A stretch of 64,000 nucleotides of DNA from a virus. Where the stretch lies: the IMG/VR virus record IMGVR_UViG_3300050821_005814, positions 1-64,000 of that record. One strand, written 5' to 3'. The position numbers and the translations under genes are program-made. A model generated the notes under the pieces. It was not told where the DNA came from and did no database searches. It worked only from the letters and a program-made list of their open reading frames with translations. This document shows, in pieces, positions 9,512 to 30,964 of the stretch (the stretch's first letter is position 1; each line of letters opens with the position of its first letter).

Positions 9512-9871
9512 CTAAGGGCAGGTAATCTCGAACAGCTGCGTACCACTGCTATCTGTCACAAGGAATGGACGCGTGCCATGCTTGTAGCAAGTGATCACCG
9601 GCTTGAAGCTATCTGGCAGCACCAACGTGTTCTCCGCGTACCCTGGGATTGCAAGCTCACCAAACTGCATGCCTGTTCCCTTGCGCTGCTCACCAGGGTT
9701 TAGCTTACTGATGCTAAACAAAGTATCCCATGATAGCGGTAGTTTGCAGCCGGATTGCTCGTAGCAAGGCGGAATGTCACCACCGATAGTAACGCTTGCA
9801 GTCTGCGCATACGCAACAGCAGCAAGAGTAGGCGGGGCAATGAGCCCCGCCAGTAGCAGCAGTCGCAGCAT
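9512..9871 (-). CDS. Exported protein of unknown function
   Basis: A 119-residue protein with a clear Sec signal peptide: MLRLLLLAGLIAPPTLAAVA followed by a probable cleavage after AYA at residue 22. The mature part has four cysteines (two as CYEQSGC, one in ITCYKHG and one near the C-terminus), suggesting disulphide bonds in the periplasm. The ATG shares a base with the stop of the upstream exported protein, so the two are probably coupled. Not recognised. Confidence 0.7.
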   Translation of the reverse strand: MLRLLLLAGLIAPPTLAAVAYAQTASVTIGGDIPPCYEQSGCKLPLSWDTLFSISKLNPGEQRKGTGMQFGELAIPGYAENTLVLPDSFKPVITCYKHGTRPFLVTDSSGTQLFEITCP

Positions 9872-10335
9872 TACTGAAGCGGCGGCGGTTTGTCAGACGG
9901 ATCAAGCAGCGGGAAGATCTGCATGATCACGTTCGTGCCATAGACCTGACCAACAAGCTTCTTGACGACGACGATCTCACTCGCCGTGAGCGTCGCTGTC
10001 TTGTCGTCCTTGATGCGCTCAGCAAGCGCACCACGCGCCCACTTCTGTTCAGGCGATACGCTGCTGACACCCTGCGCATTCGTTTCGCTAGGCAAGTTCG
10101 CAAACAGCGCATTCGCGATTGCATGTCCGACTGTCAAGTTGCCGCATGCCGAGCAATCGATACCACCGGGCTTCGTAGCGTCCGCCTTGCCTTCCAACTG
10201 ATCGATGATCGGCTTGCCTTGCGGATCCTTGAGCACGACTGTCATATCGATGACGCGGGGCGGAGGTGTATCGGCTGCCATGCCGACCTGAATTCCGGCG
10301 AGCAGCAGCACGCCAGCAAGTACATAGGCTTTCAT
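9871..10335 (-). CDS. Exported protein of unknown function
   Basis: A 154-residue protein with a Sec signal peptide (MKAYVLAGVLLLAGIQVGMA, cleavage near residue 20). The mature region begins ADTPPPRVIDMTVVLKDPQG and contains a CSAC motif (IDCSACGNLTVGHAIANALF). It is the first gene after a promoter-like GGGTATATTATG element, about 40 bases upstream, and has AGGA before its ATG. It probably heads the transcript into the neck and tail genes. Function unknown. Confidence 0.7.
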   Translation of the reverse strand: MKAYVLAGVLLLAGIQVGMAADTPPPRVIDMTVVLKDPQGKPIIDQLEGKADATKPGGIDCSACGNLTVGHAIANALFANLPSETNAQGVSSVSPEQKWARGALAERIKDDKTATLTASEIVVVKKLVGQVYGTNVIMQIFPLLDPSDKPPPLQ

Positions 10336-10370
10336 TTCCTGACCTCATCTTAGGGTTGTAGGCTAGCGCG

Positions 10371-10382
10371 CATAATATACCC
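10371..10382 (-). promoter_or_regulatory. Promoter-like motif GGGTATATTATG
   Basis: Minus-strand copy of the recurring GGGTATATT motif, in the gap between the Tat-signal protein and the exported protein at 9871..10335. A CTAG lies about twenty bases upstream, as at two plus-strand copies (54766 and 60511). Confidence 0.5.
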
Positions 10383-10408
10383 GATCCGCTCGCGCGCTTT
10401 CTAGAGCG

Positions 10409-12484
10409 TCATGTCGTCGGGCTGATCATCCATTTCCAATCGGACCTGAATGAGGAGACGACGTTTGCATATGCAAGTTGCCCATTAAGGTAGCTTGTCG
10501 GATTGACAGACCCCGCAGTGCCTGCTGTGAAGCCCATCGCCATCCCGCAACGTAGAATGTTGAAGTACGGGTAAAACCCAGCAATGCCTGTACCCGTGTT
10601 GACGAGATGCGTGTTGTCGATTGGCGTGAACCCTTCTGTCGCGCCTGCTGTGTTTTGGAAGTTCCACTCATCAGGCCAATTCGTGACATTCGGTCCCCAT
10701 ACAAGCTGATTTACACCAGCCGCATGCGTGCTCGGTGCACTGAGATTCCAGACAGTCGCAGACGCGAAGCTCGTGATCGTATAGGTGTTACCAGCGATGA
10801 CGACGTTGAATGGAAACGTCGACGGGAAGATGGCGGAAGGCGCTGCTGTCGTCGGGTAGAGCCCGCCGCTCACTGCATTAGCGAATGCAAGTGCGCAACT
10901 TGGATTCAACGTGATCGTCGTGTCGCCTATATTGAGCGGCGTACTTGCATCAAGCGTTGCAATGCCCCCGACTGGCGCATCATACCAGTTGGGCATCGAC
11001 TTGTTCCACCCGCTCGTGCCATTCGTCCGGTTGACTGCACTTGTGATCAAGCCTGCTGCAAGCGTAAGGATGCCTGTCGGTACTGTCAGTACGCCATTCG
11101 TGTTCCAGTAGACGCCAAGGTTTGCTATGATTGTCTGATAGTCATTCTCCCATGGCGACACCACACCGACCAGCGGATCCGCTACGCTCGGCGTGTACAT
11201 ATTTAAGCCGGTCCACAAATTGCTGGGCGTTGTCGTCACCCACTGCGTAATCGTATTCCCATATTGCGTCAGGATGGTATTGACTTGCGTTTTTGACAGC
11301 AACCAATTTGGCGTACTGCTTCCAGTGCAAATCACTGCCATCATTGCAGTGCGAATCGGCCATGCCATATACCGGCCGGAGTTTGAGTAGCGAAACCCTT
11401 GTCCAAAGTTGAGCAGGTCCCTGTTCATCTGGAACTGGATGTTTTCCAGATAGTAGGGATCGCCAGTCATCATGAAAGCAAGATACGAGAAGTTCGGACT
11501 ATGCCCCGCATCGTAGGTCATGTTTGACCCGCCGACATACGGGTACTGGTAGACTGTCTGCACTAGCGTGCCGCCAGGCGACGCGCCTGACACTAAGCTT
11601 GCGCGTTGGAATGCACCAGTCGGCGTGCAATCAAGCGGCGCAAGCGTTCCCGTGAATGAGCCGCCAGATGCACGCGTATCGCGGTAGACCAGGTTCCAGC
11701 TACAGGCGGCCTCAGCGATCTGAAATATATTGCCGATCGCATTACCCGTGCAGAGGTAGTAAGCTTGCCACTCAGTGAAAGGTCCGATCTCTGGACGATT
11801 GCCGCCCTGGATCATCGGCTGAACCAGTCCCGCATTACCGAGGATCGTATAGGTCTCGGTCGTTGGTACTGTCGATCCAGCACCGCTCAGTCCCGATCCT
11901 GAGTACGGCGGCAGGTAGAAGTTAGCTAATAGTTGCGCAGCTGTTTGCGTTACGGGGCGTGGGTTGCCTATCGCCCATGTCCCGCCGTTTTGTGAGCATA
12001 CCCGCCAACGCGTGCACCATGGATGCGCAGCTACGGTTGTAGAATAAACTGTCGTACCGTTGTTAGTGATCGTTATCGTATAACCAGCAGCAATATCAAC
12101 AGCACCGCTCGTCGCACTACCGTCGCCATATTCAAGCCTGCATGCTGTGACGTTTTGTGTACCTGCTGTATCGACCTCGAAGTACAAACGGAAGTTAGCT
12201 AAGCCTGAATTTGTGATAAGCGTGGGGACCATCGTGAACTGGCTGCTACCGCCACGTCCCCAATCGGTATAAGACTGCTGCGCGGTGACGGTCTGACCGG
12301 AGCCACCAGCCATGGCATAGTTGTAGGTGCCTGCAAATGCACCGCTCGGCACAACGATCTGTGCTGCAAGCCCACTTGCTGCAACGACTGCTCCAACACC
12401 GCGAACAATCGCATGCGCTTTGCGCGCTGTCGCTGAAGCAACGGCACCTCCTAGGAAGCCTCGACGTGAGAGCTTATACGTCAT
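10409..12484 (-). CDS. Tat-signal protein, candidate polysaccharide-binding or depolymerase adhesin
   Basis: A 691-residue protein that starts with a twin-arginine signal: SRRGFLGG at residues 6-13, a long alanine-rich hydrophobic stretch and an AFA cleavage-like site near 51. The middle contains AGHSPNFSYLAFMMTGDPYY followed by LENIQFQMNRDLL. This resembles the H-x-P-x-x-x-Y-x-x-x-x-TGD-x-YY signature of alpha/alpha-toroid carbohydrate-active proteins. Many aromatic and Asn residues follow. It could be a folded-before-export depolymerase or surface protein. Its ATG overlaps the stop of the Gly-rich exported protein (TGATG). Confidence 0.7.
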   Translation of the reverse strand: MTYKLSRRGFLGGAVASATARKAHAIVRGVGAVVAASGLAAQIVVPSGAFAGTYNYAMAGGSGQTVTAQQSYTDWGRGGSSQFTMVPTLITNSGLANFRLYFEVDTAGTQNVTACRLEYGDGSATSGAVDIAAGYTITITNNGTTVYSTTVAAHPWCTRWRVCSQNGGTWAIGNPRPVTQTAAQLLANFYLPPYSGSGLSGAGSTVPTTETYTILGNAGLVQPMIQGGNRPEIGPFTEWQAYYLCTGNAIGNIFQIAEAACSWNLVYRDTRASGGSFTGTLAPLDCTPTGAFQRASLVSGASPGGTLVQTVYQYPYVGGSNMTYDAGHSPNFSYLAFMMTGDPYYLENIQFQMNRDLLNFGQGFRYSNSGRYMAWPIRTAMMAVICTGSSTPNWLLSKTQVNTILTQYGNTITQWVTTTPSNLWTGLNMYTPSVADPLVGVVSPWENDYQTIIANLGVYWNTNGVLTVPTGILTLAAGLITSAVNRTNGTSGWNKSMPNWYDAPVGGIATLDASTPLNIGDTTITLNPSCALAFANAVSGGLYPTTAAPSAIFPSTFPFNVVIAGNTYTITSFASATVWNLSAPSTHAAGVNQLVWGPNVTNWPDEWNFQNTAGATEGFTPIDNTHLVNTGTGIAGFYPYFNILRCGMAMGFTAGTAGSVNPTSYLNGQLAYANVVSSFRSDWKWMISPTT

Positions 12485-13497
12485 CAGTACGTAACACTGA
12501 TCTCGCCCGATGTGCCTAGTCCGCCAGTACCTGGCGTTGTTGCAGCTCCGCCACCGCCTCCACCACCGCCGCCATAGAGGCCGCCATTGCCGCCATTGCC
12601 TGCAGTAGTGCCTTTACCACCACCACCGCCACCGCCACCTGAACCCGACGTCGCAGACTCTTCTTCACCTATCGCGCCATTGCCGCCAGCACCAGCATTG
12701 GTCGTGCCGTTACCAAACCCACCGCCGCCGCCTGCACCGCCGAACGTCGCGGAGGGGGTGCCATTACCACCAGTCGGCGTAGCTGAAACGCCTGCTGTAC
12801 CACCGCCTGTTGCATTTGAGTTGTTACCACCAACGCCGCCATTCGTGCCATTGACAGCACCTGCTGTACCACCATCAGCTCCGCCGCCCCCGCCACCACT
12901 CGTCGCAGCAGATGACCCACCAAGGCCGCCATTCTTGCCTGTGCCAATTGCACCGCCTGCAGCACCACCACCACCACCCGCATTGCCTGTACCTGAACCG
13001 CCGCCTGACCCACCAGCATTTGCAGTGCCGCCAGTGCAGGTATTGGTCTGCGTACGACCGCCGGCCGTTGTGCCGACTGCTGATGCGCCATAGTCGCCAG
13101 TACCAATCGTCGCGTTCGTATCATCCTTCAGCAGCGTTGGCAGTGTGCCGCCATGCGTGCCAATCTGCACCGTCAAATGATCATTGGCGGCAATATGCGT
13201 AGGAGCCGTCAACTTGCAGTACCCGCCCCCCTGACCGCCAGCACCGCCAGCAGGAACGGTCGTCCCCGCTGATCCATCACCACTGCTACCCTTCATCGTC
13301 CAGACAGCTGTGCCGTTTAAGTAGTCGGACGGCACAATAAGCAGCGTACCGCTTGTCTGGATGCAGGTCTTGCTCGGCGAGCTGCCAGTACAAGTCATCG
13401 TTGTACCTGACGCCACGGTACCGCCAGCGCGCGGGGGCAACGCATCCGCGGGTATCGCTGCGATTAGGAGTGCTAGCAGTGCAATAGGCGTGCGCAT
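12484..13497 (-). CDS. Exported glycine-rich fibre/adhesin protein
   Basis: A 337-residue protein with a Sec signal peptide (MRTPIALLALLIAAIPADA, cleavage near 19). Residues about 85-335 are extremely glycine-rich, with repeated GGxGG and GGGGGG blocks. Such regions in phage adhesins can pack as polyglycine-II bundles. The mature N-terminus (LPPRAGGTVASG) resembles that of the next two proteins. The short segment around residues 30-80 looks like a small beta domain. It probably belongs to a receptor-binding or surface structure, but the function is inferred only. Confidence 0.7.
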   Translation of the reverse strand: MRTPIALLALLIAAIPADALPPRAGGTVASGTTMTCTGSSPSKTCIQTSGTLLIVPSDYLNGTAVWTMKGSSGDGSAGTTVPAGGAGGQGGGYCKLTAPTHIAANDHLTVQIGTHGGTLPTLLKDDTNATIGTGDYGASAVGTTAGGRTQTNTCTGGTANAGGSGGGSGTGNAGGGGGAAGGAIGTGKNGGLGGSSAATSGGGGGGADGGTAGAVNGTNGGVGGNNSNATGGGTAGVSATPTGGNGTPSATFGGAGGGGGFGNGTTNAGAGGNGAIGEEESATSGSGGGGGGGGKGTTAGNGGNGGLYGGGGGGGGGAATTPGTGGLGTSGEISVTY

Positions 13498-13506
13498 CAG
13501 ATACCT

Positions 13507-15867
13507 CTATGGCTGCGCAAACGGTGTGCCGGCGTCGTAGCGAGCCTTTGCAGGCAAGCCTGAGTAGGTTGTGCAGGGGCCTGGCCCAGAAGCAGCAGCG
13601 ACCTTTGTCGCGCCTTGTGAGTTGACCCACGGCCATGAGTAGCTGCAAGTCGCTCCTGCGCTGAAGTATGCAGGGGCGCTGGACAGGTATAGCGAGTTCG
13701 GTAGCGTTGTCGTGAAGCCTGTCGTTGAATCAAGCGCGTTGCGCACGTAATCAAAGTTCTGACTGCGAAAAATCCACTGTGGGCTGACCGCTGCTGTCAA
13801 GTTTGCATCCGGTGCAGGCCACTCACTACCAACCCATCCTGTCATCCAAAGACATTTATTGGTGCATCCGCTATGCGCGCTAAACGCACCCTGATACGAC
13901 CAACCATTCCCTGCTGTTGTAAGACCTGCAAGCCCAAGCACGTTTCCAATGTATGCGTAGAAAACATTCAATGCCATAGGACCGGCAGCACGACGCGGCC
14001 CAGGAGAAGTGGCAGGAGGCGTTGCTCCTCCGCCAGATCCCCACGCTATATCTGCTGCATCGTTAACAATGCGTCCTGTACTAGCTTCAGTCCAGGTTGA
14101 TCGCGTCGCTGTGCAGTTGTTGCGGAAGAATACGTGATACGCAGCGCTACCATGCGTCTCATCACCATCGCAGTTGTCTGCCCAGTTACCTTCGAACAGT
14201 ACGTGATTCGTGCCCGCATAGTGGCTGCTATTGAGCGACATGTCCTCCCAAGAAGGCCCTATGACACTCTGCATATACGCATGGTCGTCAACGTAGTTGT
14301 ACGAGATGACATTCGTTGTCGAGCCTCGACCGACCATTCCCTTGCCGCCGCGCAGGATGATGCTGTCTTGGACGAGAACTTGCGTCGACGCGGAGTCCAA
14401 CGCTACGGGGTACTCGACGCCATTGTTCTCGCAGTCGGTGCAGTCATGGGAGAACAGTTCATCGATTTCTACACGCGCTGAATACTCAATGTTGACGGCG
14501 CCTGAGATCCAATTACGCACCTCCACGTTCTTAACCCAGCTCAGAGCTGCGAACTCAAACGAAATCCCACCATTCGGTGGACGATCAATGTACAAGTTTT
14601 CGATGCCGGCTTGCTGCAAGAACGGGTTGGCGGACGGCCCCTGCACGGTCGGCCAGTAGACACGCGCGTCATGGCTGCCAGACTGGCGGAAACCATTCGA
14701 GAGGGGCGCATCAAACGTGAGAGTACCAGAACCAATGGACGTAATCTTATGGATTTCAGATGTCAGTCGATTCGGACTAAATGAATAAGTACTTGGTTCA
14801 TCTCCTCCCTCAAACCGTCCGACTTGCGGTGAGCCGACATTGCTAGACCACTCCGGTGAAGCGTTGATTGCAGCGCCGCCGGTTGGATTCGTTGTGCTTA
14901 CAACTGCGGGGTTCTCGTCAATCAGCGCATACATACCAACTGAGAAATTAGCAGTACTTGATACGCTAACAGTCGTAGCGCCCGCAGCAGCATCTGCAGT
15001 TAGCGTTGCCCCGCAGCCAGTCGGCGTCGTGCCGAGGAAGCATCCGGCCCAACCCCAATTGAATGTCCCAGACGGCGATACGAGAAAGACCGGGCCGCCC
15101 GAGCACGTGACAAGGTTTGTTGCTGAGGTGCCGCAGGTAACGCCCGCCTGCGTTGTGCTGACCCACCAATCAGGAATTGCGCCGTTGTCAACTGTGATCC
15201 CAGATGGCCAGCAAGGCACGCCAGTACCGAAGAAGATGTTGTCCCCGCTCGCGACGCCAGTGCCAGTCGCGTTACCGGATAGCGTGACGGTCGTGCTCGT
15301 AAAGCTTGCAACAGTCAAGCCAGTGATCACGCCGCTCGAGATGTTCGTTTTGTCTTGCACCGTCATCCCGACTGCAACTGTCGCTGGAACTGATGCAAAC
15401 GACAGGACGTTGTTTCCTGCTGCTGTTGCCGCGTTGGTAGTCACGCCTCCGCCAATAATGCCGCACGTACCTGTCGGCGATCCAGCCCCTCTGATTGTGA
15501 TTGCTTTGTTGAGCAAAATTGACGTTTCCGACATCGTGATGTGGAACGCGCCATTCAGCGAAACAACCTGCCCTGCTGTGCATGCCGCAATAGCAGCGGT
15601 GATCTTTGATGCATCATCGCCTGACGCTGGCGGCGTGATGCCGCTTGGCGTGACAGTCTGGCAGATCGTGTTGCGCGTGGGGATGCCGCTAATGCTTGCC
15701 AACCCAGCGTTGGGCCAATTCGTAGTCGACAGGTCATTGTATGCAGGCAGCACGGGCTGGCTTACTGCTACAATACCCGTGCCATGCGGCGGTGCTGCTA
15801 ATGCAAAGTCCGGTATGAACCATGCAAGCATCAGCAGCAGATTGAAGATGAAGCGGTATGTGCGCAT
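13507..15867 (-). CDS. Exported right-handed beta-helix protein, tailspike/depolymerase candidate
   Basis: A 786-residue protein starting at ATG 15867 (TGATG overlap with the upstream stop). It has a Sec signal peptide ending near residue 24 (FALA/APP). Residues about 80-140 (SKITAAIAACTAGQVVSLNG, then ITMSETSILLNKAITIRGAG) are the classic entry to a pectin-lyase-type parallel beta-helix. Later NGVEYPVALDS, QDSIILRGGKG and LFEGNWADNCDGDETHGSAA look like successive helix coils. Phage proteins of this fold often cleave capsular or exopolysaccharide. The export signal is atypical for a tailspike. Confidence 0.75.
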   Translation of the reverse strand: MRTYRFIFNLLLMLAWFIPDFALAAPPHGTGIVAVSQPVLPAYNDLSTTNWPNAGLASISGIPTRNTICQTVTPSGITPPASGDDASKITAAIAACTAGQVVSLNGAFHITMSETSILLNKAITIRGAGSPTGTCGIIGGGVTTNAATAAGNNVLSFASVPATVAVGMTVQDKTNISSGVITGLTVASFTSTTVTLSGNATGTGVASGDNIFFGTGVPCWPSGITVDNGAIPDWWVSTTQAGVTCGTSATNLVTCSGGPVFLVSPSGTFNWGWAGCFLGTTPTGCGATLTADAAAGATTVSVSSTANFSVGMYALIDENPAVVSTTNPTGGAAINASPEWSSNVGSPQVGRFEGGDEPSTYSFSPNRLTSEIHKITSIGSGTLTFDAPLSNGFRQSGSHDARVYWPTVQGPSANPFLQQAGIENLYIDRPPNGGISFEFAALSWVKNVEVRNWISGAVNIEYSARVEIDELFSHDCTDCENNGVEYPVALDSASTQVLVQDSIILRGGKGMVGRGSTTNVISYNYVDDHAYMQSVIGPSWEDMSLNSSHYAGTNHVLFEGNWADNCDGDETHGSAAYHVFFRNNCTATRSTWTEASTGRIVNDAADIAWGSGGGATPPATSPGPRRAAGPMALNVFYAYIGNVLGLAGLTTAGNGWSYQGAFSAHSGCTNKCLWMTGWVGSEWPAPDANLTAAVSPQWIFRSQNFDYVRNALDSTTGFTTTLPNSLYLSSAPAYFSAGATCSYSWPWVNSQGATKVAAASGPGPCTTYSGLPAKARYDAGTPFAQP

Positions 15868-17342
15868 CAGTGAAACGCCGCCGCTGCTGCGAAGCACGTC
15901 GACCCCGCGAAGGAGATCAACGTCCATGTCCAGTTCTCAGCAGCAGTCGTTGAGTTGTACAGAATGGCCATACCATCCCCATTGTTCATGAAATCAGCAT
16001 CCGCATCGCCTGTGTAATTGACGAGCGCATACTGCGCTCCTGCAGGCGATGTTACGCCAGTCGTGTAACTGCTTGGTGCAAAATGACCGATGACCAAACC
16101 ATTCGAGTGCGTTGGCGTGATGTTCGGCGCACCGCCAAACGATGTCACGCTTGAGCAGCTACCTGTCGGTGCAAGCGCCGCCCCGACATCAAACGCCGTT
16201 GCATTTAGTACATCAAACATGCGCACTGTCGTGTTAGGTGTCGTGTTAGCAGCGCTGCTGTAGTGCACCGTGACGAATGTGTTGCCCGTCGATGCTGCGC
16301 AGAAGCAGTACCATATGAATTTGTTGCTGTCAGCGGAAAGCCACGTGTTGCCGTCGCTATCCGTCACGGCTGGCGTCTGAAACGACCAACCAAAGCCTTG
16401 CAGGAACGACCCATCCATGATGCGCAGGTTGCCGGTGAACTGCGCTTGCAGCACCCAGTTAAAGTTTGCTGGCGCGATGGGCGCTGCTGTGAGGTCCAGG
16501 AGCTTGCGGACGTAGATAGTACTCGGCAGTGATCCGCCTGCTGATGCTACTTTCAGCGGGACCGTGATGACGTTGAAGTGGTCGCTCGTGTTCCCTGCAA
16601 TCGTCATGGACGGCGTTGTCGCTGCTGCCGTGCGCTGCAAGAACATCTGCGTCGCATGGTAGAACGACGTGTTCGAGTTCCATGCAGTATCCTGGTCGAC
16701 TTGCGTGTACCCACTTGCGGCCGTGTAGGATGTCGGGTTACCAGCGCCTGTACCACTCGCCATCGCTAGGTAGCTGTAGACGAGTGTGCCGCCAGCAGCA
16801 TCGTTGTTTGACGGCGTGAGTGAGCCTGGGTTGACGACACTCGTCCCAGCATTGATCGCCGAATTAGCAACGCATGAGGCCGTGCCATTGACAGGCGACG
16901 CTGTCGCTATGTTGTTGAACTCAACAAGCGTCATCTGGAAGGGACGCGTCAACGATGTCAAGTTGACTGTGACAAAGTCCCGTCCTGCAGGCATGGCAGG
17001 CACAAGCCAAACGGCTGTCGTGTAGTTGCCTACTCCCGCATCTGCTGTGCAGATAGGCGATCCAAACGTTGTACCATTCGTGTCCGTGATCGAAGAGAAT
17101 GTGCCGTGCGGGTAAGACACGCCGACATATAGCAGGTCATTCGCTTGGATCGCATTGGGTAGCTGGCGAACGTAGTTGTTGCCGTTAAACCCAGCGCCCC
17201 CTGGATTGACGGTTGTTGATGCCTGCTGAATGATCACAGGCGTTGGCGGACCACCCCCACTGACAATCCCCCCGCCATGCGGAAGGAATGCTAGTGCGGG
17301 ATGCGATAGCAGCAGCGCGAGAAGAACGAGCAGACGCTTCAT
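15867..17342 (-). CDS. Exported beta-sandwich repeat protein
   Basis: A 491-residue protein with a Sec signal peptide (MKRLLVLLALLLSHPALA). Two related halves follow: each starts with a YVR.L segment and a GN/DSNGNTW-like beta stretch (about residues 57-110 and 280-345), and both then show long Ser/Thr/Ala-rich strands. This suggests a duplicated adhesin domain. The mature N-terminus FLPHGGGIV matches APPHGTGIV of the beta-helix neighbour. ATG 17342 overlaps the upstream stop (ATGA). Exact function unknown. Confidence 0.7.
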   Translation of the reverse strand: MKRLLVLLALLLSHPALAFLPHGGGIVSGGGPPTPVIIQQASTTVNPGGAGFNGNNYVRQLPNAIQANDLLYVGVSYPHGTFSSITDTNGTTFGSPICTADAGVGNYTTAVWLVPAMPAGRDFVTVNLTSLTRPFQMTLVEFNNIATASPVNGTASCVANSAINAGTSVVNPGSLTPSNNDAAGGTLVYSYLAMASGTGAGNPTSYTAASGYTQVDQDTAWNSNTSFYHATQMFLQRTAAATTPSMTIAGNTSDHFNVITVPLKVASAGGSLPSTIYVRKLLDLTAAPIAPANFNWVLQAQFTGNLRIMDGSFLQGFGWSFQTPAVTDSDGNTWLSADSNKFIWYCFCAASTGNTFVTVHYSSAANTTPNTTVRMFDVLNATAFDVGAALAPTGSCSSVTSFGGAPNITPTHSNGLVIGHFAPSSYTTGVTSPAGAQYALVNYTGDADADFMNNGDGMAILYNSTTAAENWTWTLISFAGSTCFAAAAAFH

Positions 17343-18091
17343 GGAGCCGTAGGCGAGAAGAAGGATGCGAGAGCGGCTGGCGTTCCCCCGCCAGCAGCGA
17401 GAAGATTGAGACCAGCGCCAACGAGGTTCGTGTTGCCGCTGGCGTTATCTGTGAGGGTTGTCGTAGTCGTCGTGCTCAGCAGATAGTTCCCTGCGTCATT
17501 GATAGAAGCACCTGCCGTGTTGCTCCACAGTGACGTGCCATTCATCGTCATCGATGGGTCCGGCGAGTTGAACACTGCCGTGCACATATTGCCGTTGGCG
17601 CTCGTTATCGGAATCGAAATTGCCGCCGTGCTTGCTGGATTAGTAAGCGATGTGCCATTTGTACAGGGCGTAGACTGATTAACGCCAGAGAACTGCACTG
17701 CTATGTAGTCGACTTCTCCCGCCGTTCCTGTCCAACTGATGCTAAGCGTCTTGGCGCCTGTGGCGGGTGCGGCAAGACAGAACATCGCTACCTGCGACGA
17801 ACTTGCACCATCGTAAAGAGATGTGCCGGTGACTGCCGGGACGGTCACACCGTTCCAAGTTGCTGCATATGTCAGAGTTCCGCCCGAGCTTGCTGCAATG
17901 TAGACAACCAACGCTGAGTTGGCTGCACCTGTGACCGTCAGACTGGTATTGGTAAGCGGCGAAGTTGGAGATGCGTCATTAGTAGAAATTGTCCCCTTAG
18001 CTACAAAAGCAACTGCCGCCTCTGCTGTCTGACTAAGCGCGAACAGACAGCAGAGAATTACCAGGAAGTGCTTGAGTCTCTTCATGCTCAT
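17339..18091 (-). CDS. Exported beta-rich protein
   Basis: A 250-residue protein with a Sec signal peptide (MKRLKHFLVILCCLF, cleavage near residue 25 after AEA). The mature part consists of Ser/Thr/Ala/Gly-rich predicted strands like the repeats of the 491-residue neighbour, for example LTYAATWNGVTVPAVTGTSL and KTLSISWTGTAGEVDYIAVQ. It appears to be a single copy of that domain type. Its start overlaps the stop of the giant 2177-residue protein (ATGA). It is probably part of the same surface complex. Confidence 0.7.
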   Translation of the reverse strand: MSMKRLKHFLVILCCLFALSQTAEAAVAFVAKGTISTNDASPTSPLTNTSLTVTGAANSALVVYIAASSGGTLTYAATWNGVTVPAVTGTSLYDGASSSQVAMFCLAAPATGAKTLSISWTGTAGEVDYIAVQFSGVNQSTPCTNGTSLTNPASTAAISIPITSANGNMCTAVFNSPDPSMTMNGTSLWSNTAGASINDAGNYLLSTTTTTTLTDNASGNTNLVGAGLNLLAAGGGTPAALASFFSPTAP

Positions 18092-24000: not shown

Positions 24001-24621
24001 GGCGCTAGCCTTCTGAATGGCTGGTGCACCGTCTGACCGCATATAGGTCGTGGCTGTGCCATTGATTGCAGTCGGTCCGGCCGTTGCCGTCGGGTTGGCT
24101 GCTGTCGGTGCCGTTGCAGGCGTCTGCCAGGTTGCTGCTGTGCTGCTCGTAGCCGTCAACACCTGCCCTGGACTGGGGGCTGTTGCAGCGCTGACGTTCA
24201 CGATGGTCGTCGCTGAGTTCAGCGCATTCGTTGACGTTGAAACGAGGTTGCCGGTGATGTTGGGACTGGGGATTGTCAACCCAGATGGCAAGGTCGTTGA
24301 AATCGTCGGGGCGCCTGACCCATTCGTCACCAGCACGCCATTGTTGGCAGTCGCTAGGTTAGCGACAACGCCAGCAAGGTTGTATAGCAGCCCATTGGTC
24401 GCACCGCCGCTGATCGTCGTTGTGCCGATGATGATTGCAGAGCTCCCGCTGCTCGAGCACGTCGGGCAGGAGATCTTGCGCAAGCCATACCCGGGGCCTG
24501 ATGGCGTCACGACTATCGGCGCGACGCCAACGATGTCAGGCGGTGGGGGGTTGGCTGCTACTGCGTTGTGCGCAATGACCAGCGCAAGCAGTATGGTAGC
24601 AATGGCTACAATGCGGCGCAT
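18088..24621 (-). CDS. Giant exported repetitive adhesin-like protein
   Basis: A 2177-residue protein with a Sec signal peptide (MRRIVAIATILLALVIAHNA, cleavage near 22). The rest is almost entirely Thr/Ser/Ala/Gly/Val. The unit SATTITPGTTTISG...PCAIVNS...V..CDA recurs about eight times, and blocks such as ATTFMRSDAAPA.QLGSAS and GFPGFGTITTNA recur two to three times. About 1 kb is duplicated in frame with an offset of 1,677 bases. This resembles long phage fibre or adhesin stalks built by repeat expansion. ATG 24621 has GGAGG upstream. The composition alone gives no receptor. Confidence 0.8.
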   Translation of the reverse strand: MRRIVAIATILLALVIAHNAVAANPPPPDIVGVAPIVVTPSGPGYGLRKISCPTCSSSGSSAIIIGTTTISGGATNGLLYNLAGVVANLATANNGVLVTNGSGAPTISTTLPSGLTIPSPNITGNLVSTSTNALNSATTIVNVSAATAPSPGQVLTATSSTAATWQTPATAPTAANPTATAGPTAINGTATTYMRSDGAPAIQKASAIQFGLVETDGSTISNAAGVISCTTATTGQLGCVRPDGATITITGGVITAVGGSATSIVPGTTTIGGGTPPCAIVNSAGTTMVCDAINAGVITAMANAVNAASGLLTFSIIGTSGALVPVLNGNNTWAGTQAHNDGSLALNGSTSGQVVLHAPATGGGAITFPAGAATLLAINGNGSGLTGLTYSQLPALAANQLLGALTATTPSGLAVPSCSTAGSALNWTSGTGFSCNTSITAASMALGGLTGLGANVATALAVAVGNAGAFVTFNGAGGTPSSIVLTNATGTAASLTAGIATTANALNSATTTIVVNGATAPGAGQVLTATSGTAANWQTPAAAPAGANPSATASNTAVNGVATTFMRSDAAPAIQLGSASQFGLVKVDGTTITASAGVISASGGSATTIIPGTTTITGATAPCAIVNSATTVMACDAISASVITAMANAVNAASGLLTFSIIGTSGATVPLLNGNNTYSGTSIFSGAVSHTGALPTQAAGTLGIAGNVTSPTLAANGEGDVYLLSTTGGLALIGQGSTNDLTLLNKAGSNVCVVPTGTTTFNCTGLQVGGVAVSTATAANPTATAGSAAVNGSATTFMRSDAAPAVALGSASTFGVVKVDGTTITASAGVISAVGGSATSITPGTTTISGGLSPCLLANSTGSTSACITLGTTFSMSGGALASLVPDTTHTVSASVANAGGQDNYNGSSITATGLAAPPANSTQLIVNQNASALTIANNSVTVNGLALSTTLRTNGFYVYTSNGTSWDAYGFPGFGTITTNALMKFADGSGAATASTITDAGAGVTIGSPTGGAQGAGTLNATGLFINGATALTIAGSNHNVLFNGSGALSGSPGFNFDGTSIISIGISGTATGTITFATLGGGVTTLVPTSSASSPTITLPSTSGTVTVLGNTVTGSSGTIVEATSPSIATPTFTGTVPSFTVATITGALTGHASADCALAACTMTGELTTVASATGTAGLNLPQGAAPTAPVNGDLWTTASGLFVRIAGATVGPLAASGGAPAFSSITSGTNTAAAMVVGSGATLAITGAAPTQAAGTLGLAGGITTPTLAANGEGDVYLLSTTGGLALIGQGSTNDISVFNKSGTSVCTVATGTTNWNCTGLQVGGTAVSTAAAANPTATAGSTANNGTATTFMRSDASPAVALGSASTFGLVKVDGTTITASGGVITASGGSATTITPGTTTVSGATAPCLIANSATTVMQCVALSSAFSISGGTLASLVTDSTHTVSAAVANPGGQDNYNGTSITATGPASPVANATQLITNQNATVLTIANNSVTVNGLALSTSLHTNGFYSYTFNGTSWDAYGFPGFGTITTNAVMKFLDGSGAAAASTITDAGAGVTVGSPTGGAQGAGTVNATGLFINGVAAVTSNNWTATAVTAIGATLTNSAGTLSCTTATASVIGCSRPDGTTITISAGVLTASGGSATTITPGTTTVVGATSPCVLQNPSTTVLSCGVVASTLLTSAATTHTTSATTANLGGEDDYNGSSITATLATLASGQTAFITDQNATTLTIANNSQTVNGLPLSTSLHTGGFYGYNFNTTTSQISAWGFPGFGTITSGALMKFLDGTGAATAGDLSGDITTAGALVTTLATVNANVGSFGDATHVGQFTVNAKGLITAAASVAITASASTITPGTTTISGATAPCAIVNSATTVMACDALGTGVVTALAVNVGSAGAFVTFNGAGGTPSALTLTNATGLPAGGLVAIAANTVLANATSGSASPTAFAMPSCSTASSALIYTSGTGIGCTANMATLNTADQTLSGGFNLTAFSIGTVTTGTTTIDCGKNPGQWMVDAGASTIAAPTSDGSCLVRVYLGGGFGTITFSGFNAEGTNTGDTIPSADKSTATATFTNASANIGWTNTLSVGQPVYFTNAGGGLPTNFTSGTVYYVIATGLSGTNIQVAATPGGTAITAGSAGTGTQTGHAAASYLLSISRVNGGAKYLASADQ
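19858..20870 (-). repeat. In-frame ~1 kb repeat within giant adhesin, copy 1
   Basis: This segment matches the segment starting 1,677 bases further right with the same offset at both ends (GCCGTTGATGAACAA at 19858 and 21535; TTGCGTTGG at 20854 and 22531). The encoded blocks share LAANGEGDVYLLSTTGGLAL and GTSWDAYGFPGFGTITTNA. A shorter third copy lies at about 19200-19480. Confidence 0.8.
21535..22547 (-). repeat. In-frame ~1 kb repeat within giant adhesin, copy 2
   Basis: Partner of the copy at 19858..20870. No net insertion or deletion separates the copies. Differences are scattered substitutions, so the duplication is not recent but has been kept in frame. Confidence 0.8.
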
Positions 24622-24626
24622 GTAAA

Positions 24627-25106
24627 TTAGCCTCCGATTGCGGAGATCTGAGCGGTACCGTTGTCGCAGATGGCGTTGATGACGGCTCCCGGTGCTGGCG
24701 GGGGGTCGACAGTGAACGAACCACCACCTGGATAGATCGGCGCACCGACACCTACCTGCGCAGCACTACCATCGACGGTGATCCACACGGTTCCCGGCGG
24801 ATCACCAGCCCCAGGGGACGTTGAAGTCGTTGTATTGAATATGGTCACAAGACGCGTGATCACGCCAGCAGCAACGATAGCGGTCGTCACGCCGCCAACT
24901 GTCGTTGCCTCCAGTATGGAGCCTTGCGGCAGGTAGGCGAGCGTGCCGTGCGATGTCGGTAGCGGGTTGGTCGGACCGACTGGCGCGCCATTGACGCGCT
25001 GCGCTGTCTGAAACGCAAGGTTACCGCTACTGTCTGCGACTGCTTGGAATGGACGCTCGTCTCCAAGGCCATCGATGACTTGAACCGTTGTGGTTGTATC
25101 AGCCAT
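24627..25106 (-). CDS. Small structural protein candidate, not exported
   Basis: A 159-residue protein between the two giant exported proteins and the only member of that block without a signal peptide (MADTTTTVQVIDGLGDERPF). Segments such as DSSGNLAFQTAQRVNGAPVG, GVITRLVTIFNTTT and GTVWITVDG suggest a small beta domain with a Pro/Gly-rich C-terminal stretch. It could be a virion decoration or chaperone-like partner of the fibres. ATG 25106 has GAGGTG upstream. Not recognised. Confidence 0.65.
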   Translation of the reverse strand: MADTTTTVQVIDGLGDERPFQAVADSSGNLAFQTAQRVNGAPVGPTNPLPTSHGTLAYLPQGSILEATTVGGVTTAIVAAGVITRLVTIFNTTTSTSPGAGDPPGTVWITVDGSAAQVGVGAPIYPGGGSFTVDPPPAPGAVINAICDNGTAQISAIGG

Positions 25107-25128
25107 GATGCAAACACCTCATATGAAT

Positions 25129-28100
25129 TTAGATTTGCGAGCTGCGCGTCATGGTGCAGCGTCCGCCAATATCCCATGTGTTCACGGTCGGCGTGATCTC
25201 GAGATCAATTGCGCCAAGCGTTGTGTCAGCAGCAGGTGCCGCAATGGAGATACGCCCGCCTGCACTCGATGTCGCGTAGTCCTGCGTCCATGATGTGGGG
25301 AGCCCTATGATTTGCGTTGTCGATGCTGTCGCACCCATCTGCGCACCAAATGCGACATGCCAACCAATCGCATCGCTACCACCGTGATTCAAGCTTGTAG
25401 CTGCGACAGTGCAGACAACGTTCACAGTCGAGTGCGGCGGGAAGTTAAGCGTGTTGCCTGCAATCTGCAGTGTGACCGTCGCGCCTGATCCCCCACCACC
25501 TGACACGGCTGCAGTCGCCTCTGCAACGCAACCCGTTCCTGGATTGTTGACGCCAATGTTGCCAAGCGTACCGCCAGCACCGAGATCACCATTGACGATG
25601 GCACCCGTGCAGCCAGTAACTGTGATCGTCGGTAACGACGTGTAGCCAGTACCGCCCAAAGGTCGGTAGACGTTATAGATGTAGGAGCTCGCTGCCTGCC
25701 CATTGCTTGTCAGGCGCGTGTTGCCCGTGATGCCTGTCGCCTGGATCGTGCAAGCGACTATATGCGGTGCGCGATAGTCACAATTGCTGAAGGTCGTCGA
25801 TGCGACATCAACAGCCGACCCAAGCGAGCTACCAGGGCCACCCTGCGACTGAATGATTGCGCCGAATGCATTGTTGGGGAACCCGCCATACTCCTGCCCC
25901 AAGCACATGATGCACTTGTAGCCTGTGACGACTACGCCCGACTGCTCCCCCCATACCAACCCAAGGTCTGGTCCCAAAGCACCGAGTGCAGCGTTTGGCG
26001 TTGAGCCGCCAATGTGAACGTATAGTCCTTGCGTGTTGCGCATGTAGGTGACGCCAGACACCGCAAGCAAGTCGTTCTCGTAGTTTGCGCAACCATGCAC
26101 AAACGATGTACCAGCTAACTCTTCGCAATAGGATCCATAGGTCGTGTGCGCTCCCTGGTAGACGGTTGCTGAACCGCCCTCATTGCTTTGGATCCAAATC
26201 GCCGTGTTGATCGCTTGGTCAATCCCAGGGTTGGTGTGCGTGCCAACTGCTGTCATGCTTTGCGAGCTAGCGCTGATTGACTGGCTTAGGTTGTAGGTGC
26301 CGTTCCCACCGGTGCCTGTACCAAATGACACGATCGTCAGCGGAACAGGTGCACCTGAATAGGTGATCGTCTGACCAATGAGGAGCGGTGACCCAGAGTA
26401 TGCGCTGACGGTCAAGAGACCGCTTGCTATGACGCCAGTAAACGTGCCGCGCGTCTGCGCATTGCCGAGGATGTTGACGAATGCATTGAGGCCAATGCGA
26501 TTGCCGACCGCGACCGAACCATTCGGCGCGATATCGTCCTCAAGGTTGAAGAGCTGCGGGGCGTTCGTTGAGGTCGACGTGAACGAATCGCTGATCCGCG
26601 CATTCCATGCGAATGCAGTGCCTGACGTGATCGATCCTGTCACAAAGCCTGTCTCGCTCAACCATGCGGTGGGATTGGCATTGGACAGCACAGCCCCATT
26701 TCCCGTACGCGCGATGGTCGGACCAGCCGCAATGTGCGCCCAGGTGCTCTCGCCAGCAAAGTTGGTTACCGCACTAGCGTTGCCGATGTTGGTCGCAGTC
26801 GCGCTGGTCGTGCCGACGCCAATGGCATTTGCAATTGCATAGGCAAAGTTTACCTGTGCGCCAGTGCCTGTGCCGCCAAGGAGCGTGACAGGATTGGTCG
26901 GCGCTGCGCTTGCGTAGTGACCAGGCGTGACGATTGTGTACCCAACGATCTGATTGCTGCCGTTCACTGAGATCGACAGTATCGTGCCTGTCGATGGGTC
27001 ATACAGGTGATCCGTCGATCGGTAGTTGGTCCCGGTGACACCGCTCGGTACTGTCGCAGCGTTGACCTCTCCCCCACCAACATCGATCGTCGCAGTCGAA
27101 CCGGACGTCGATATCTTCATAGACTGTACGAGGAGCTGCCCAAGGTTGCTGACCTTGAACCCGCCAGTCAAACGGAACGCTGAGTCCGTGAACTCAACGC
27201 CGGACAAGTCGATACCGCGGCCTGTCTGCGGATTCACATAGCTACCAAAGCCTGAGAACTGATCAGGCGCTCCCGGGTTGTACCCAAAGAGCGTGCCACC
27301 TGCAGTCGCTGCGAAGGTGTTTCCCCCGCCTACTGCGTACACAAGGTTGAAAGGAGCAGTGCCTCCCGTAACGGAGATAGCTTGGTCTATTTCGTTCCCT
27401 TGCAAGTTGCCGTACCCGACGACATGCAGACCATAGCGCGTCGCAGCCGATGCGCCTGTGTAAATGCCGACGTCAATCTCGCGCCCCGCGCATCCGGACA
27501 AGTTGGTAGCGCCAGCGAAGCACCACATCTGGTCGCCGCCAGCATATACGAAGCCGGCTGACGATCCGCCATTAGGTGCTGTGCCGCCTTGGTTAGCTGA
27601 GATCGCAGTCGTCAAAACCTGCGCTTGCCACTGACGACCAGTATCGGATGTGCTGCCGATGAACGACTGAATGTTGAGCGATACGTTCTGCGCAGAGCGC
27701 GAACCGCTACCATTCAAGCTGACGTAGTTCCAAGTGCAGGTACCGTCGGCAATGCCAGTACCGGTGCCTGTAGGACCTGTGCCGCTGCTGCTTGATGTGC
27801 AGGAGGCAGCAGTCTCTGTGTAGTAATTCCCATTGGCTGCGCGATTGTTCCCCGTCACATAAGCCGTGCTCTGCTGCCAGGGTGCGCCGCCATATGCACC
27901 GCCGATCAAAAACCACGTCGCACCTTGCGATGCATTCGGGATAGCAGAGATGTCCTGATTGATGACTATCTTGTTGGCTGCGATCGTGCCAGATGACACA
28001 GACCCCGCAAGATTAAGCGATTCGAGGAACCCATACTGCGTGCCGATACCAGCTTGCGTGCCAGAGAAGGTCAACGTCCCACCAACGCCTGCGTACAGCG

Positions 28101-30936
28101 AGTTCGTCTGGATCTGGCTGCTGCCGCCTGTGACTACGAACGTGCTCCCCGCATTGCTAAAGTTCATGACAGCAATGCTGCCGATACCATAGCTTGGGTC
28201 ACCGAACGTGATGTGCGTCCCGTTGCCGCCAGGCGACACGATTAAGTTCGTCGTATTAGCTGACTCAAATGCTGGTGCAAACGTCTTGTTCGCAATGGAT
28301 ATGACAGCGCTGCTGTTGCCAATGTTGATTGCAGTCGCAACGCCAGTACCAAGGTTCAACGTTGTAGGCGCACTCCAGGTCTCAGCAATCGTCAGCCCCG
28401 ATCCATGCCCATTGGATGCCGCATAGGTGCCTGAAGTCGTCGCACCATAACCAACATTCTTAAGCGCTATGCCGCCTGCTTGCACCACACCGCCAATGAC
28501 GTTGGTCAGGTTCCAGCTGTTGCCATTCGCGTCATACACATCCTCACCTTGGATGTAGTTGTTGCCGCCTGCGGCAACTGACGATGCAGTTAGCTGATTG
28601 CGCGTGACGTCAATCGTAGCGCCATTGGATAGCAGCGCGATGGTGAGCGCGCCCGATGACAACGCCCCTGTACCTGCGACATTGAACCCGGCTGATTGCA
28701 GGAAGTTACCCGTGAAGTGCACATCAGGCTGGCAATACCCGCAGGCGGATGCCATCGGCTTGAAGGGCACAGTGTTGTCAGAAGCGTTGGCCGTCTGGCG
28801 ATACTCGCCGATTTGCGTGCCGCCGGAATCACCGGGGTACTGTCCGTCCGGACGCCCAAACGCGACAAGATTCAAACCGCCGACAGTGCTACTCGCTGCG
28901 ACGTTGTTCTGACTTGAGATGCCGATGAAGGTGTCATACAGGCCGCCTTGAACCGCATCACCAGTCTCATTGATGAACGTCCTGATTGCCTTGTAGCTGA
29001 GCACTGATCCGCCAAGGACCTTGATATTGTCCTCGGCACCAAACGCGCCATAAGCTGTTGTGTTCGCAGCGACAACTGTCTGCACACCGCCTGCATAGTA
29101 CTTCGCTAATGGATTCGTGCATCCAGCACATCCAGCGAATAGCCAAGATGCTTGCGCGTTGATCGATGCGCCGCTGGCCATATTGCCGTTCTGGTTCATC
29201 TGTGAAAGGTTGCCGATGCGAGCACCAGCAAATGCACTGCCACCAAAGTTTGCATAGACAGCAGTATCGGCAATCGCTTGCACAGTTGAGTTCACGTTGT
29301 CTGTGGGGACCGTAAACTTCATGAAGGCATCCTGACCACCGCTATAGGTGCCTGTGAAGCTTGCGGAGAATAGCGCGGGGTAAGGAATGGTCGTGCTGCT
29401 CAGCGTATAGGTCGAGCCGGGCGAACGATAGAACTGCGCATTCAGTAGGTTGTTGACAGTAAGGACATGGCCGGTTGTACCATTGACGGGCAACCCAGCG
29501 GACGAGAAGGTCATCGTCGCTATGGAGCCAACGCCGAAGGACCCCGCGCCAAATTGAATGTTCTGATTCGTGCTACCAGGACTAATGATGAGCGCTTGAC
29601 CGCTTCCGCCTAGGATCGAGCCGTTAGACCCTGTCGCATTGAACGTCGCAACGCCGTTGAACGTGGCACCATTCGTTACGGTCAGCCCTGTGCCTGACCC
29701 CGTGAAGGATGCAGCACCATTCGCGGACAACGTAGTGAATGCGCCAGTCCCTGGCGCTACATTGCCGATCGGCAGGGGTGACGAGAAGAGCGCTGTAATC
29801 CCAGTGCCTGTTACAGCGCCGCTTGCAGTCAACGTTGTGACGTTCGCGGCTGCTGGTACGCTCCCGCCTAGCACTGCGTTGTCGATTGTGCCGCCAGACA
29901 TTGTTGGCACGCTAAGCGTGAGACCTGCGATCGTTGTCGTCGTCGCGCCCAGCGTCAATGCAGTGCTGCCAAGCGTCAACCCCGCATTCGCCAACCCTGC
30001 ATTCGCTAGCGACCCATTGGTCACATGCGATAGATTGCTCACTGTCAGGGCGCCTGCATTATTGAGCGATGCGTCACCCGTGACAGCAACAGGCGTTGCT
30101 ATACCGAAGTTGTTTCCGATGAGGATGTCCGCATTGGCAAGGGCGCTCCCTTGCGGCGTGTACCCCAATGCCCCTGTGACATCACCGGACGTCAGCGTCA
30201 CAGCTCCCATGCGGCCAAACACGCTGACGACGTTAGCTGCAAGGTTGCCAAGCGAGCTTGTAAGCCCAGCACCGACACTGAGTGTCGCAAGCGCGCCCAA
30301 CCCCGACACGTCGGCGGCAGTCGGTTGCGTCAAATGCGCGTTACCGGCCGTGTCAATGTACGCGACAAATTGATGGGTGACGGGCGCGATTGCTTCGATC
30401 CCGCCCAAGCTCGACAATGTCGGGAGCGGCAAGTCTGCGCCAACGAGCAAGCGGAAGCTAGGCGCGCCGCCAGACCCCGCCGGCGCTCCATAAAAGCTGT
30501 TCTGCGATTGCGCAGCGGACAGCGTCAATGATTGCGCTGTGATCGTCGTCGCTTTGATGGTGTTTGGCGTTGTGATGCCAAGGGGCGGCGGCGTTGCGAA
30601 ATAGTTGATAAAGCCTGCTCCGCTGACAACACCTGACGCGGACAGCAGCGTGAACAACCCTTGATTGGGAACTGATCCGCCGATGACGCCAGGCGATCCC
30701 CAGGTGCCGCCCTGCAATGTCGCAGCGTCAAATGATCCGCCAGCTATCGCGTCAGCGATTTGCTGCACCGTGAATGCGACTGTCAGCCCGTTCTGCGCCC
30801 CTTGGATCAAATCCTGCGGGTTCACAGTCGTGACACGCTGACACGTCTGCGGCCATGCGCCAGTGCACGAGGCTTCCGCCCCATGCGCCGCGCACAAGCC
30901 TGCTAGCACGATCAATGCTGCTCGCAACCAACGCAT
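25129..30936 (-). CDS. Giant exported fibre/adhesin-like protein
   Basis: A 1935-residue protein with a Sec signal peptide (MRWLRAALIVLAGLCAAHGA, cleavage near 22). The mature N-terminus SCTGAWPQTCQRVTTVNPQD leads into Ala/Gly/Thr-rich strands like those of the 2177-residue protein (VTNGSLANAGLANAGLTLGS, GSVPAAANVTTLTASGAVTG). Further on, less repetitive domains contain aromatic and Cys residues (FAGCAGCTNPLAKYYAGGV). GGNGTYNLSQSISASSQS is a motif common in long phage tail proteins. It is the first gene of the exported block and has an AAAGGGG site. Role as receptor-binding fibre is inferred. Confidence 0.8.
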   Translation of the reverse strand: MRWLRAALIVLAGLCAAHGAEASCTGAWPQTCQRVTTVNPQDLIQGAQNGLTVAFTVQQIADAIAGGSFDAATLQGGTWGSPGVIGGSVPNQGLFTLLSASGVVSGAGFINYFATPPPLGITTPNTIKATTITAQSLTLSAAQSQNSFYGAPAGSGGAPSFRLLVGADLPLPTLSSLGGIEAIAPVTHQFVAYIDTAGNAHLTQPTAADVSGLGALATLSVGAGLTSSLGNLAANVVSVFGRMGAVTLTSGDVTGALGYTPQGSALANADILIGNNFGIATPVAVTGDASLNNAGALTVSNLSHVTNGSLANAGLANAGLTLGSTALTLGATTTTIAGLTLSVPTMSGGTIDNAVLGGSVPAAANVTTLTASGAVTGTGITALFSSPLPIGNVAPGTGAFTTLSANGAASFTGSGTGLTVTNGATFNGVATFNATGSNGSILGGSGQALIISPGSTNQNIQFGAGSFGVGSIATMTFSSAGLPVNGTTGHVLTVNNLLNAQFYRSPGSTYTLSSTTIPYPALFSASFTGTYSGGQDAFMKFTVPTDNVNSTVQAIADTAVYANFGGSAFAGARIGNLSQMNQNGNMASGASINAQASWLFAGCAGCTNPLAKYYAGGVQTVVAANTTAYGAFGAEDNIKVLGGSVLSYKAIRTFINETGDAVQGGLYDTFIGISSQNNVAASSTVGGLNLVAFGRPDGQYPGDSGGTQIGEYRQTANASDNTVPFKPMASACGYCQPDVHFTGNFLQSAGFNVAGTGALSSGALTIALLSNGATIDVTRNQLTASSVAAGGNNYIQGEDVYDANGNSWNLTNVIGGVVQAGGIALKNVGYGATTSGTYAASNGHGSGLTIAETWSAPTTLNLGTGVATAINIGNSSAVISIANKTFAPAFESANTTNLIVSPGGNGTHITFGDPSYGIGSIAVMNFSNAGSTFVVTGGSSQIQTNSLYAGVGGTLTFSGTQAGIGTQYGFLESLNLAGSVSSGTIAANKIVINQDISAIPNASQGATWFLIGGAYGGAPWQQSTAYVTGNNRAANGNYYTETAASCTSSSSGTGPTGTGTGIADGTCTWNYVSLNGSGSRSAQNVSLNIQSFIGSTSDTGRQWQAQVLTTAISANQGGTAPNGGSSAGFVYAGGDQMWCFAGATNLSGCAGREIDVGIYTGASAATRYGLHVVGYGNLQGNEIDQAISVTGGTAPFNLVYAVGGGNTFAATAGGTLFGYNPGAPDQFSGFGSYVNPQTGRGIDLSGVEFTDSAFRLTGGFKVSNLGQLLVQSMKISTSGSTATIDVGGGEVNAATVPSGVTGTNYRSTDHLYDPSTGTILSISVNGSNQIVGYTIVTPGHYASAAPTNPVTLLGGTGTGAQVNFAYAIANAIGVGTTSATATNIGNASAVTNFAGESTWAHIAAGPTIARTGNGAVLSNANPTAWLSETGFVTGSITSGTAFAWNARISDSFTSTSTNAPQLFNLEDDIAPNGSVAVGNRIGLNAFVNILGNAQTRGTFTGVIASGLLTVSAYSGSPLLIGQTITYSGAPVPLTIVSFGTGTGGNGTYNLSQSISASSQSMTAVGTHTNPGIDQAINTAIWIQSNEGGSATVYQGAHTTYGSYCEELAGTSFVHGCANYENDLLAVSGVTYMRNTQGLYVHIGGSTPNAALGALGPDLGLVWGEQSGVVVTGYKCIMCLGQEYGGFPNNAFGAIIQSQGGPGSSLGSAVDVASTTFSNCDYRAPHIVACTIQATGITGNTRLTSNGQAASSYIYNVYRPLGGTGYTSLPTITVTGCTGAIVNGDLGAGGTLGNIGVNNPGTGCVAEATAAVSGGGGSGATVTLQIAGNTLNFPPHSTVNVVCTVAATSLNHGGSDAIGWHVAFGAQMGATASTTQIIGLPTSWTQDYATSSAGGRISIAAPAADTTLGAIDLEITPTVNTWDIGGRCTMTRSSQI

Positions 30937-30964
30937 GAAGCGCTGCCCCTTTAAGAAGAAAAGC

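Follow-up and report, generated by a model that had tools for sequence, protein, structure and literature searches.

Consecutive genes with export signals between the head and neck genes of a contractile-tailed phage: candidate secreted adhesins and glycan-active proteins

By the general view, the fibres of tailed phages are all assembled and folded in the cytoplasm. Here we report a block of ten consecutive genes (9512-30936) in the IMG/VR virus record IMGVR_UViG_3300050821_005814, eight of which encode proteins with a called signal peptide of the general secretory (Sec) type and a ninth a protein whose N-terminus resembles a twin-arginine translocation (Tat) signal. Unless stated otherwise, positions are those of the window that we analysed, bases 1-64000 of this 106,805-base record. 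Among the phage proteins described as exported by the host are Sec-secreted endolysins and a secreted antiholin (PMC6116005). The block proteins would share this export and differ in kind: with PHROGs and Pfam, no peptidoglycan-degrading or spanin family was recognised among the ten, and the endolysin-type gene of the studied phage lies elsewhere. The passages of PMC3556154, PMC3765740, PMC9144972, PMC9206674, PMC7696170, PMC12923769 and PMC6116005 that were available hold no description of export signals on tail fibres; these passages cover their sources in part, and absence from print is unproven.

The closest described proteins are gp19 of the Burkholderia phage BcepC6B and ORF35 of the Xanthomonas phage PBR31, annotated as tail fiber protein and putative structural protein, respectively, both of which were called signal-bearing in our analysis. 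The fibre-type gp19, which is encoded besides a separate signal-less spike, gp18, has a cysteine-pair motif, PSCST..SAL..T.GTG..C, in common with the block protein at 18088-24621 (pairwise E 5e-4), and meaningful alignment between the two is limited to this segment. However, gp19 and ORF35 are single short proteins beside lysis genes, with no block between a DUF4054 and a Neck1 gene, and their C-terminal tip of about 140 amino acids (aa) belongs to phrog_11393, which neither of the two giant block proteins matches. The gp19 tip is also found in fibres of Klebsiella and Pectobacterium phages, which are signal-less and gave no match from any block protein of the window. The tandem tail fibres of a Bcep22-like phage were considered as a precedent and rejected, gp58, gp59 and gp61 of BcepIL02 being signal-less and the call on the similar gp62 being an artefact.

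Signal peptides were called with our own rule-based caller, which is no substitute for SignalP 6. It was benchmarked on two stretches of Escherichia coli K-12, with 76 of their 85 coding sequences used after exclusion of truncated and very small ones, and with localisation labels taken as background; it flagged 7/8 secreted, 0/49 cytoplasmic and 8/19 membrane proteins. In the block, 8/10 proteins were called as Sec substrates of signal peptidase I, each with an n-region, an h-region and an AxA-type site together, versus 5/92 genes of at least 100 aa elsewhere in the phage (Fisher p = 2.4e-7). A preliminary description of this DNA had counted export signals in nine of the ten genes, with 24627-25106 as the sole exception; the eight Sec calls and the Tat-like start of 10409-12484 bear out this count, and the caller finds nothing in 24627-25106. 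None of the eight Sec calls has a lipobox with a cysteine at +1, the mark of superinfection-exclusion lipoproteins. Antisense open reading frames (ORFs) inside the block were called in 2/17 cases. With a filter against extra membrane segments, the caller flagged 77/1356 genes of sheath relatives, 12/165 genes of five reference phages and 21/587 genes of the first 80 loci of a fibre-motif sample (loci under 4000 bases skipped), all counts being of genes of at least 100 aa. The largest number of signal-bearing genes among ten neighbours was three in the sheath relatives and reference phages and four in the motif loci. Known false positives are BcepIL02 gp62 and a tail-tip-like gene in the motif locus L152. 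The gene caller skipped 15867-17342 and shifted the start of 25129-30936 inward; the block analysis used the listed ORFs and one corrected start.

The minus strand of the window carries a myovirus structural run that leads from terminase through portal, head morphogenesis, protease and major head protein to a DUF4054 head-completion gene (30965-31633), and then through the block to a Neck1/tail-completion gene (8920-9510), a contractile tail sheath of the DUF3383 type (5496-7034) and the tape measure. All ten block ORFs were confirmed; they lie on the minus strand in one tight run of about 21 kb, and from DUF4054 through Neck1 the intergenic gaps measure -4 to 73 bases. We compared this order with a set of 85 loci, made up of 80 kept IMG/VR sheath relatives (one being the same phage) and five reference loci. 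DUF4054 and Neck1 are both visible in 65/85 and lie -3 to 1058 bases apart, with at most 60 bases in 55/65; of the ten larger gaps, some contain a gene or two. Thus 21.4 kb separate the two genes in the studied phage versus at most 1058 bases in 65/65 relatives, in a comparison unable to reveal a gap as large as 21.4 kb because each locus has a flank of at most 10 kb. Where the pair is missing (20 loci), the available DNA starts less than 4 kb upstream of the sheath. Four further loci, from other IMG/VR contigs (three contigs, all from the same sample), agree with the window at 99.99-100%.

Cysteines are denser in the signal-bearing block proteins, with a mean of 1.71 per 100 aa (1.05-4.12), than in 38 other structural genes, where the mean is 0.72 (Mann-Whitney p = 5.6e-4). 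This contrast holds mainly against structural proteins, since the 92 other genes taken together average 1.08. In 18088-24621, the 30 mature cysteines can all be grouped into 15 pairs of neighbours at spacings of 3-25 residues. A test of such pairing gave p = 5e-5, its floor, for this protein and for 25129-30936, and 0.02 for 13507-15867; a value below 0.05 was reached by 1/27 other proteins of the studied phage, and the proteins at 9871 and 17339 have too few cysteines for the test. Cysteine conservation could be assessed for 13507-15867 alone, which has a homologue at 59% identity on contig L006. L006 is a different phage contig, on which no DUF3383 sheath or DUF4054 was found. The homologue keeps 14/16 of the window's cysteines, the other two being opposite gaps, and has eight extra ones, of which six stand opposite residues other than cysteine, including two in the leader. 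It also has its own called signal peptide, kept despite diverged letters. The nine cysteines of 10409-12484 show no local pairing, which would be expected if Tat exported this protein in an already-folded state.

A smaller cluster recurs on IMG/VR contig 3300028800_000137 (L017), whose sheath, at 55%, is the closest non-identical one in the set of 80 kept relatives. Like the studied phage, L017 has consecutive signal-bearing genes beside a signal-less partner: four in a row follow a relative of 24627-25106 (34% over 119 aa, pairwise E 4e-8). It differs in the smaller size of the cluster, in its position between the neck genes and the sheath, and in a GDSL esterase domain in the first signal-bearing protein (L017:3766-5592). 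This domain and an Ig-like domain both exceed the Pfam cut-offs and accompany a fibre motif; the protein may be a deacetylase that is joined to a fibre and exported. The second signal-bearing protein (L017:5589-7082) is related to residues 1078-1173 of 25129-30936 (pairwise E 2e-8). After their signals, the four L017 proteins have 1.02, 0.84, 0 and 1.0 cysteines per 100 aa, versus 0.28 pooled over 17 other genes. Elsewhere L017 carries a signal-less fibre of phrog_11303, the PHROG to which the two canonical tail fibres of the studied phage also belong (minus strand, 102179-103950 of the record; one with Gly_rich_2). Unlike the block proteins, these canonical fibres have no called signal and 2 and 0 cysteines. 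They follow the baseplate genes, the position of Caudoviricetes tail fibres, whereas the block lies between DUF4054 and Neck1.

To sample fibres blind to their signals, IMG/VR was scanned for the motif D[LV]xxxxTARTNLG, which at least 121 ORFs in at least 120 loci carry. Among the matches listed, 106 have a closed N-terminus and 12 of these are signal-bearing, a proportion that is not a count of independent origins because near-duplicate loci are present (L178 and L188 are near-identical, L128 and L160 close, and several signal-less loci likewise). Start codons were chosen among several, some of them GTG or TTG. The caller flagged 14/106; L127, L158 and L159 were dropped by eye (internal starts, counted as signal-less) and L152 was added by eye. 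The motif follows directly after the signal in L017 and L150, and this placement is not general (within 45 residues in 1/12 signal-bearing and 1/94 signal-less sample fibres). Cysteines are more frequent in the signal-bearing fibres (0.91 per 100 aa, n = 12) than in the signal-less ones (0.29, n = 94; p = 4.3e-4). Of the signal-bearing proteins that have cysteines at all, 16/19 have an even number (binomial p = 0.002, with near-duplicates counted), versus 25/60 signal-less ones. Where sample fibres have four or more cysteines, pairing reaches p < 0.05 in 5/6 signal-bearing and 2/10 signal-less proteins.

One of the 12 signal-bearing fibres belongs to another contractile-tailed phage, whose sheath is phrog_165. 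This phage has four signal-bearing genes after its baseplate genes, with one signal-less tail-fibre gene in between; one of the four proteins matches tail-collar/tail-fibre PHROGs (E 4e-14) and a 977-aa one matches none. Two adjoining signal-bearing genes, one of them encoding the motif protein, were also observed at L195:6398-8583 and at L208:11501-13908. Since 12/106 sample fibres have an export signal, this is a recurrent minority trait of fibres and not unique to the studied phage. The preliminary description had taken it as known that phage fibres normally lack such signals, which describes about nine tenths of one fibre class and leaves out this minority. It had also suggested looking for similar blocks in DUF3383-type phages; the cluster of L017 answers to this in part, being smaller and sitting after the neck genes, not between DUF4054 and Neck1.

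Within the block, the gene next to DUF4054 encodes a 1935-aa fibre-like protein (25129-30936) with the Sec signal peptide MRWLRAALIVLAGLCAAHGAEA^S and 20 cysteines after the cut, locally paired; it has no tblastn match in phages and no PHROG or Pfam family. The 159-aa signal-less protein (24627-25106) comes next, followed by a 2177-aa repeat-rich fibre-like protein (18088-24621; Sec signal peptide ..HNAVA^ANPPPPD), which has shaft segments in common with phage fibre ORFs. The 250-aa protein (17339-18091; Sec signal peptide ..SQTAEA^AVAF) has weak minor-tail PHROG matches only (E 0.02 and 0.06), and the 491-aa protein (15867-17342; Sec signal peptide MKRLLVLLALLLSHPALA^F) a weak PHROG match only (E 0.07) and no Pfam family. 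The 786-aa protein with a Sec signal peptide and 16 mature cysteines (13507-15867) has a right-handed beta-helix match under the Pfam cut-off. Its ORF, listed as 13507-15927, is the only one of the block that needed correction, the start being moved to the methionine at 15867, which overlaps the upstream stop. Structure prediction from a two-sequence alignment gave a mean predicted local distance difference test score of 28 and no usable fold, a PDB sequence search with the beta-helix pair gave chance-level matches only, and the L006 homologue had no match when searched against plasmids. Near this homologue, at L006 10272-11431, a lipoprotein-like gene and another with a signal-like start were seen by eye.

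The 337-aa glycine-rich protein (12484-13497; Sec signal peptide MRTPIALLALLIAAIPADA^L) might have been a copy, made for export, of the tip of the phage's glycine-rich tail fibre, but this idea was dropped for want of any detectable relation. The 691-aa protein (10409-12484) starts with the Tat-like SRRGFLGG and fails the Sec rule; by eye, its hydrophobic stretch is broken by charged residues. About 100 of its residues show a relation to gp39 of EBPR siphovirus 1, within the C-terminal half of that signal-less protein, the N-terminal part of which has a match to PcRGLX_1st; tblastn against phages gave one weak match and a PDB sequence search nothing. A 154-aa protein (9871-10335; Sec signal peptide ..IQVGMA^ADTPP) and a 119-aa protein (9512-9871; Sec signal peptide, called cut ..TLAAVA^YAQ; 4 cysteines) complete the block on the Neck1 side. 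Fibre-type or structural relations are thus direct for 18088-24621, by way of L017 for 25129-30936, and none or weak for the other block proteins; the preliminary label "virion-like" fits the two giants and not most of their neighbours.

Megablast of 9000-31500 against annotated phages gave no match, nor did tblastn against phages for 25129-30936, 13507-15927, the second L017 fibre and the L119 fibre (18088-24621 was not in this query set). Genome-contig scans, run with short peptide patterns only (25129-30936 and the beta-helix pair), gave no relatives, so that no host or bacterial source was identified.

Outside the block, a 201-aa protein with a strong Sec signal and no PHROG family is encoded among the head genes (36994-37599, minus strand) and may be a further member. 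A small 97-aa protein near the terminase genes (48071-48364) has a signal-like start. In the portal ORF (41041-43164), a C-terminal stretch (about residues 572-694) matches giant phage proteins, with DarB-like and endolysin-labelled PHROGs, and looks as if a shared domain had been fused to the portal. The rest of the record holds replication-like genes (by eye), and the minus strand of its far end encodes the baseplate genes, the two canonical tail fibres and the endolysin-type gene. Around 8089-16500 of L008 (record 90 to 98.5 kb), several small plus-strand ORFs begin with a similar leader with ..ALVQDNGRTNM in translation (by eye), which suggests a recurring translation-start or promoter element.

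We propose, with a probability of roughly one half, that nine of the ten block proteins are secretory adhesins of fibre or tailspike type and, probably, glycan-active proteins, exported by Sec or Tat and partly disulphide-bonded, which act outside cytoplasmic virion assembly. The block, its signals, its synteny, its recurrence and its cysteine pattern are read directly from the sequence. For export, which the preliminary description had raised as a possibility, there is support other than the signals themselves: part of the set stands out in the content, pairing and conservation of its cysteines, and such signals recur in other phages. Glycan-related hints come from the beta-helix match of 13507-15867, below the cut-off, and from the GDSL esterase domain of the first L017 protein, above it. 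The block genes would be expressed late, along with the head and neck genes, and their products would be exported by the host Sec machinery, one of them probably by Tat. Part of the set may then become disulphide-bonded in the periplasm, and the proteins, which would not be built into virions within the cytoplasm, would be released at the latest upon cell lysis. They could act on envelope or surface polymers or on receptors, for example by coating or trimming glycans in such a way that progeny escape and later phages adsorb poorly.

Several observations weigh against this proposal. The head-to-neck position of the block and the match of residues 199-264 of 18088-24621 to a virion-structural PHROG (E 5e-6) are more in keeping with parts of the virion than with helpers of lysis; no catalytic family exceeds the cut-off in the block, and passage across the outer membrane without lysis has no explanation. 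The cysteine excess is smaller when all 92 other genes are taken as reference, and the 15 pairs of 18088-24621 are non-independent, the protein having internal repeats. Pairing was not detected in 4/7 tested block proteins (10409, p 0.80; 12484, 0.20; 15867, 0.28; 9512, 0.34) or in 2/3 tested L017 proteins. Moreover, with 9 cysteines, or 1.41 per 100 aa, the signal-less spike gp18 of BcepC6B exceeds the signal-bearing gp19.

The main rival, which we consider rather unlikely, is an assembly from the outside in, where exported and folded fibres would dock on virions at or after lysis by way of a signal-less neck partner such as 24627-25106. The location of the block, whose genes are packed tightly between DUF4054 and Neck1, is consistent with it, as are the signal-less partner found beside signal-bearing genes both here and in L017, the virion-structural match of 18088-24621 and the tail-collar/tail-fibre match of a signal-bearing protein in the phage with the phrog_165 sheath. 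However, gene order alone does not put a protein in the virion, the similarity of the two partners is modest, and neither a docking motif nor, with PHROGs and Pfam, any virion-anchor family was recognised in the block, where eight proteins start with a signal peptide instead. Its most explicit form, in which Sec-exported adhesins would be folded with disulphides in the periplasm and join virions through a neck docking protein, as a second, extracytoplasmic assembly line, appears doubtful.

It is improbable that the block encodes ordinary virion fibres whose hydrophobic N-termini merely resemble signals, for instance as membrane-interacting tips or as relics of fusion with a secreted bacterial gene. 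The fibre-like and structural relations would fit such proteins, false positives of the caller do exist, and gp18 of BcepC6B illustrates a cysteine-rich spike without a signal. Nonetheless, n-region, h-region and AxA-type site co-occur in eight proteins, the signal is retained while the letters diverge, and part of the set has excess and paired cysteines. Least probable is that these are morons, cargo genes that stem from bacteria, modify the surface of the host and are unrelated to particle assembly or lysis: the beta-helix homologue of L006 does lie in a different gene context (by eye), but the block sits within the structural run, where gaps measure -4 to 73 bases, has fibre-type relations and, over the scanned 12000-31700, shows no excess of promoter-like (4 vs 7.9) or terminator-like sites (11 vs 14.1) over shuffles.

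Fibre-type proteins as such are already known; what is new is a multi-gene, signal-bearing and partly cysteine-paired set beside canonical signal-less fibres. Export of such proteins lends itself to direct tests in cultured phages. Should a noticeable minority of fibre-type proteins be exported, and some of them need disulphides, phages would possess an extracellular arm of adhesins and enzymes that is now annotated as "tail fiber" or "hypothetical". Such an arm, if real, would bear on host-range prediction, superinfection, escape from biofilms and catalogues of receptor-binding proteins.

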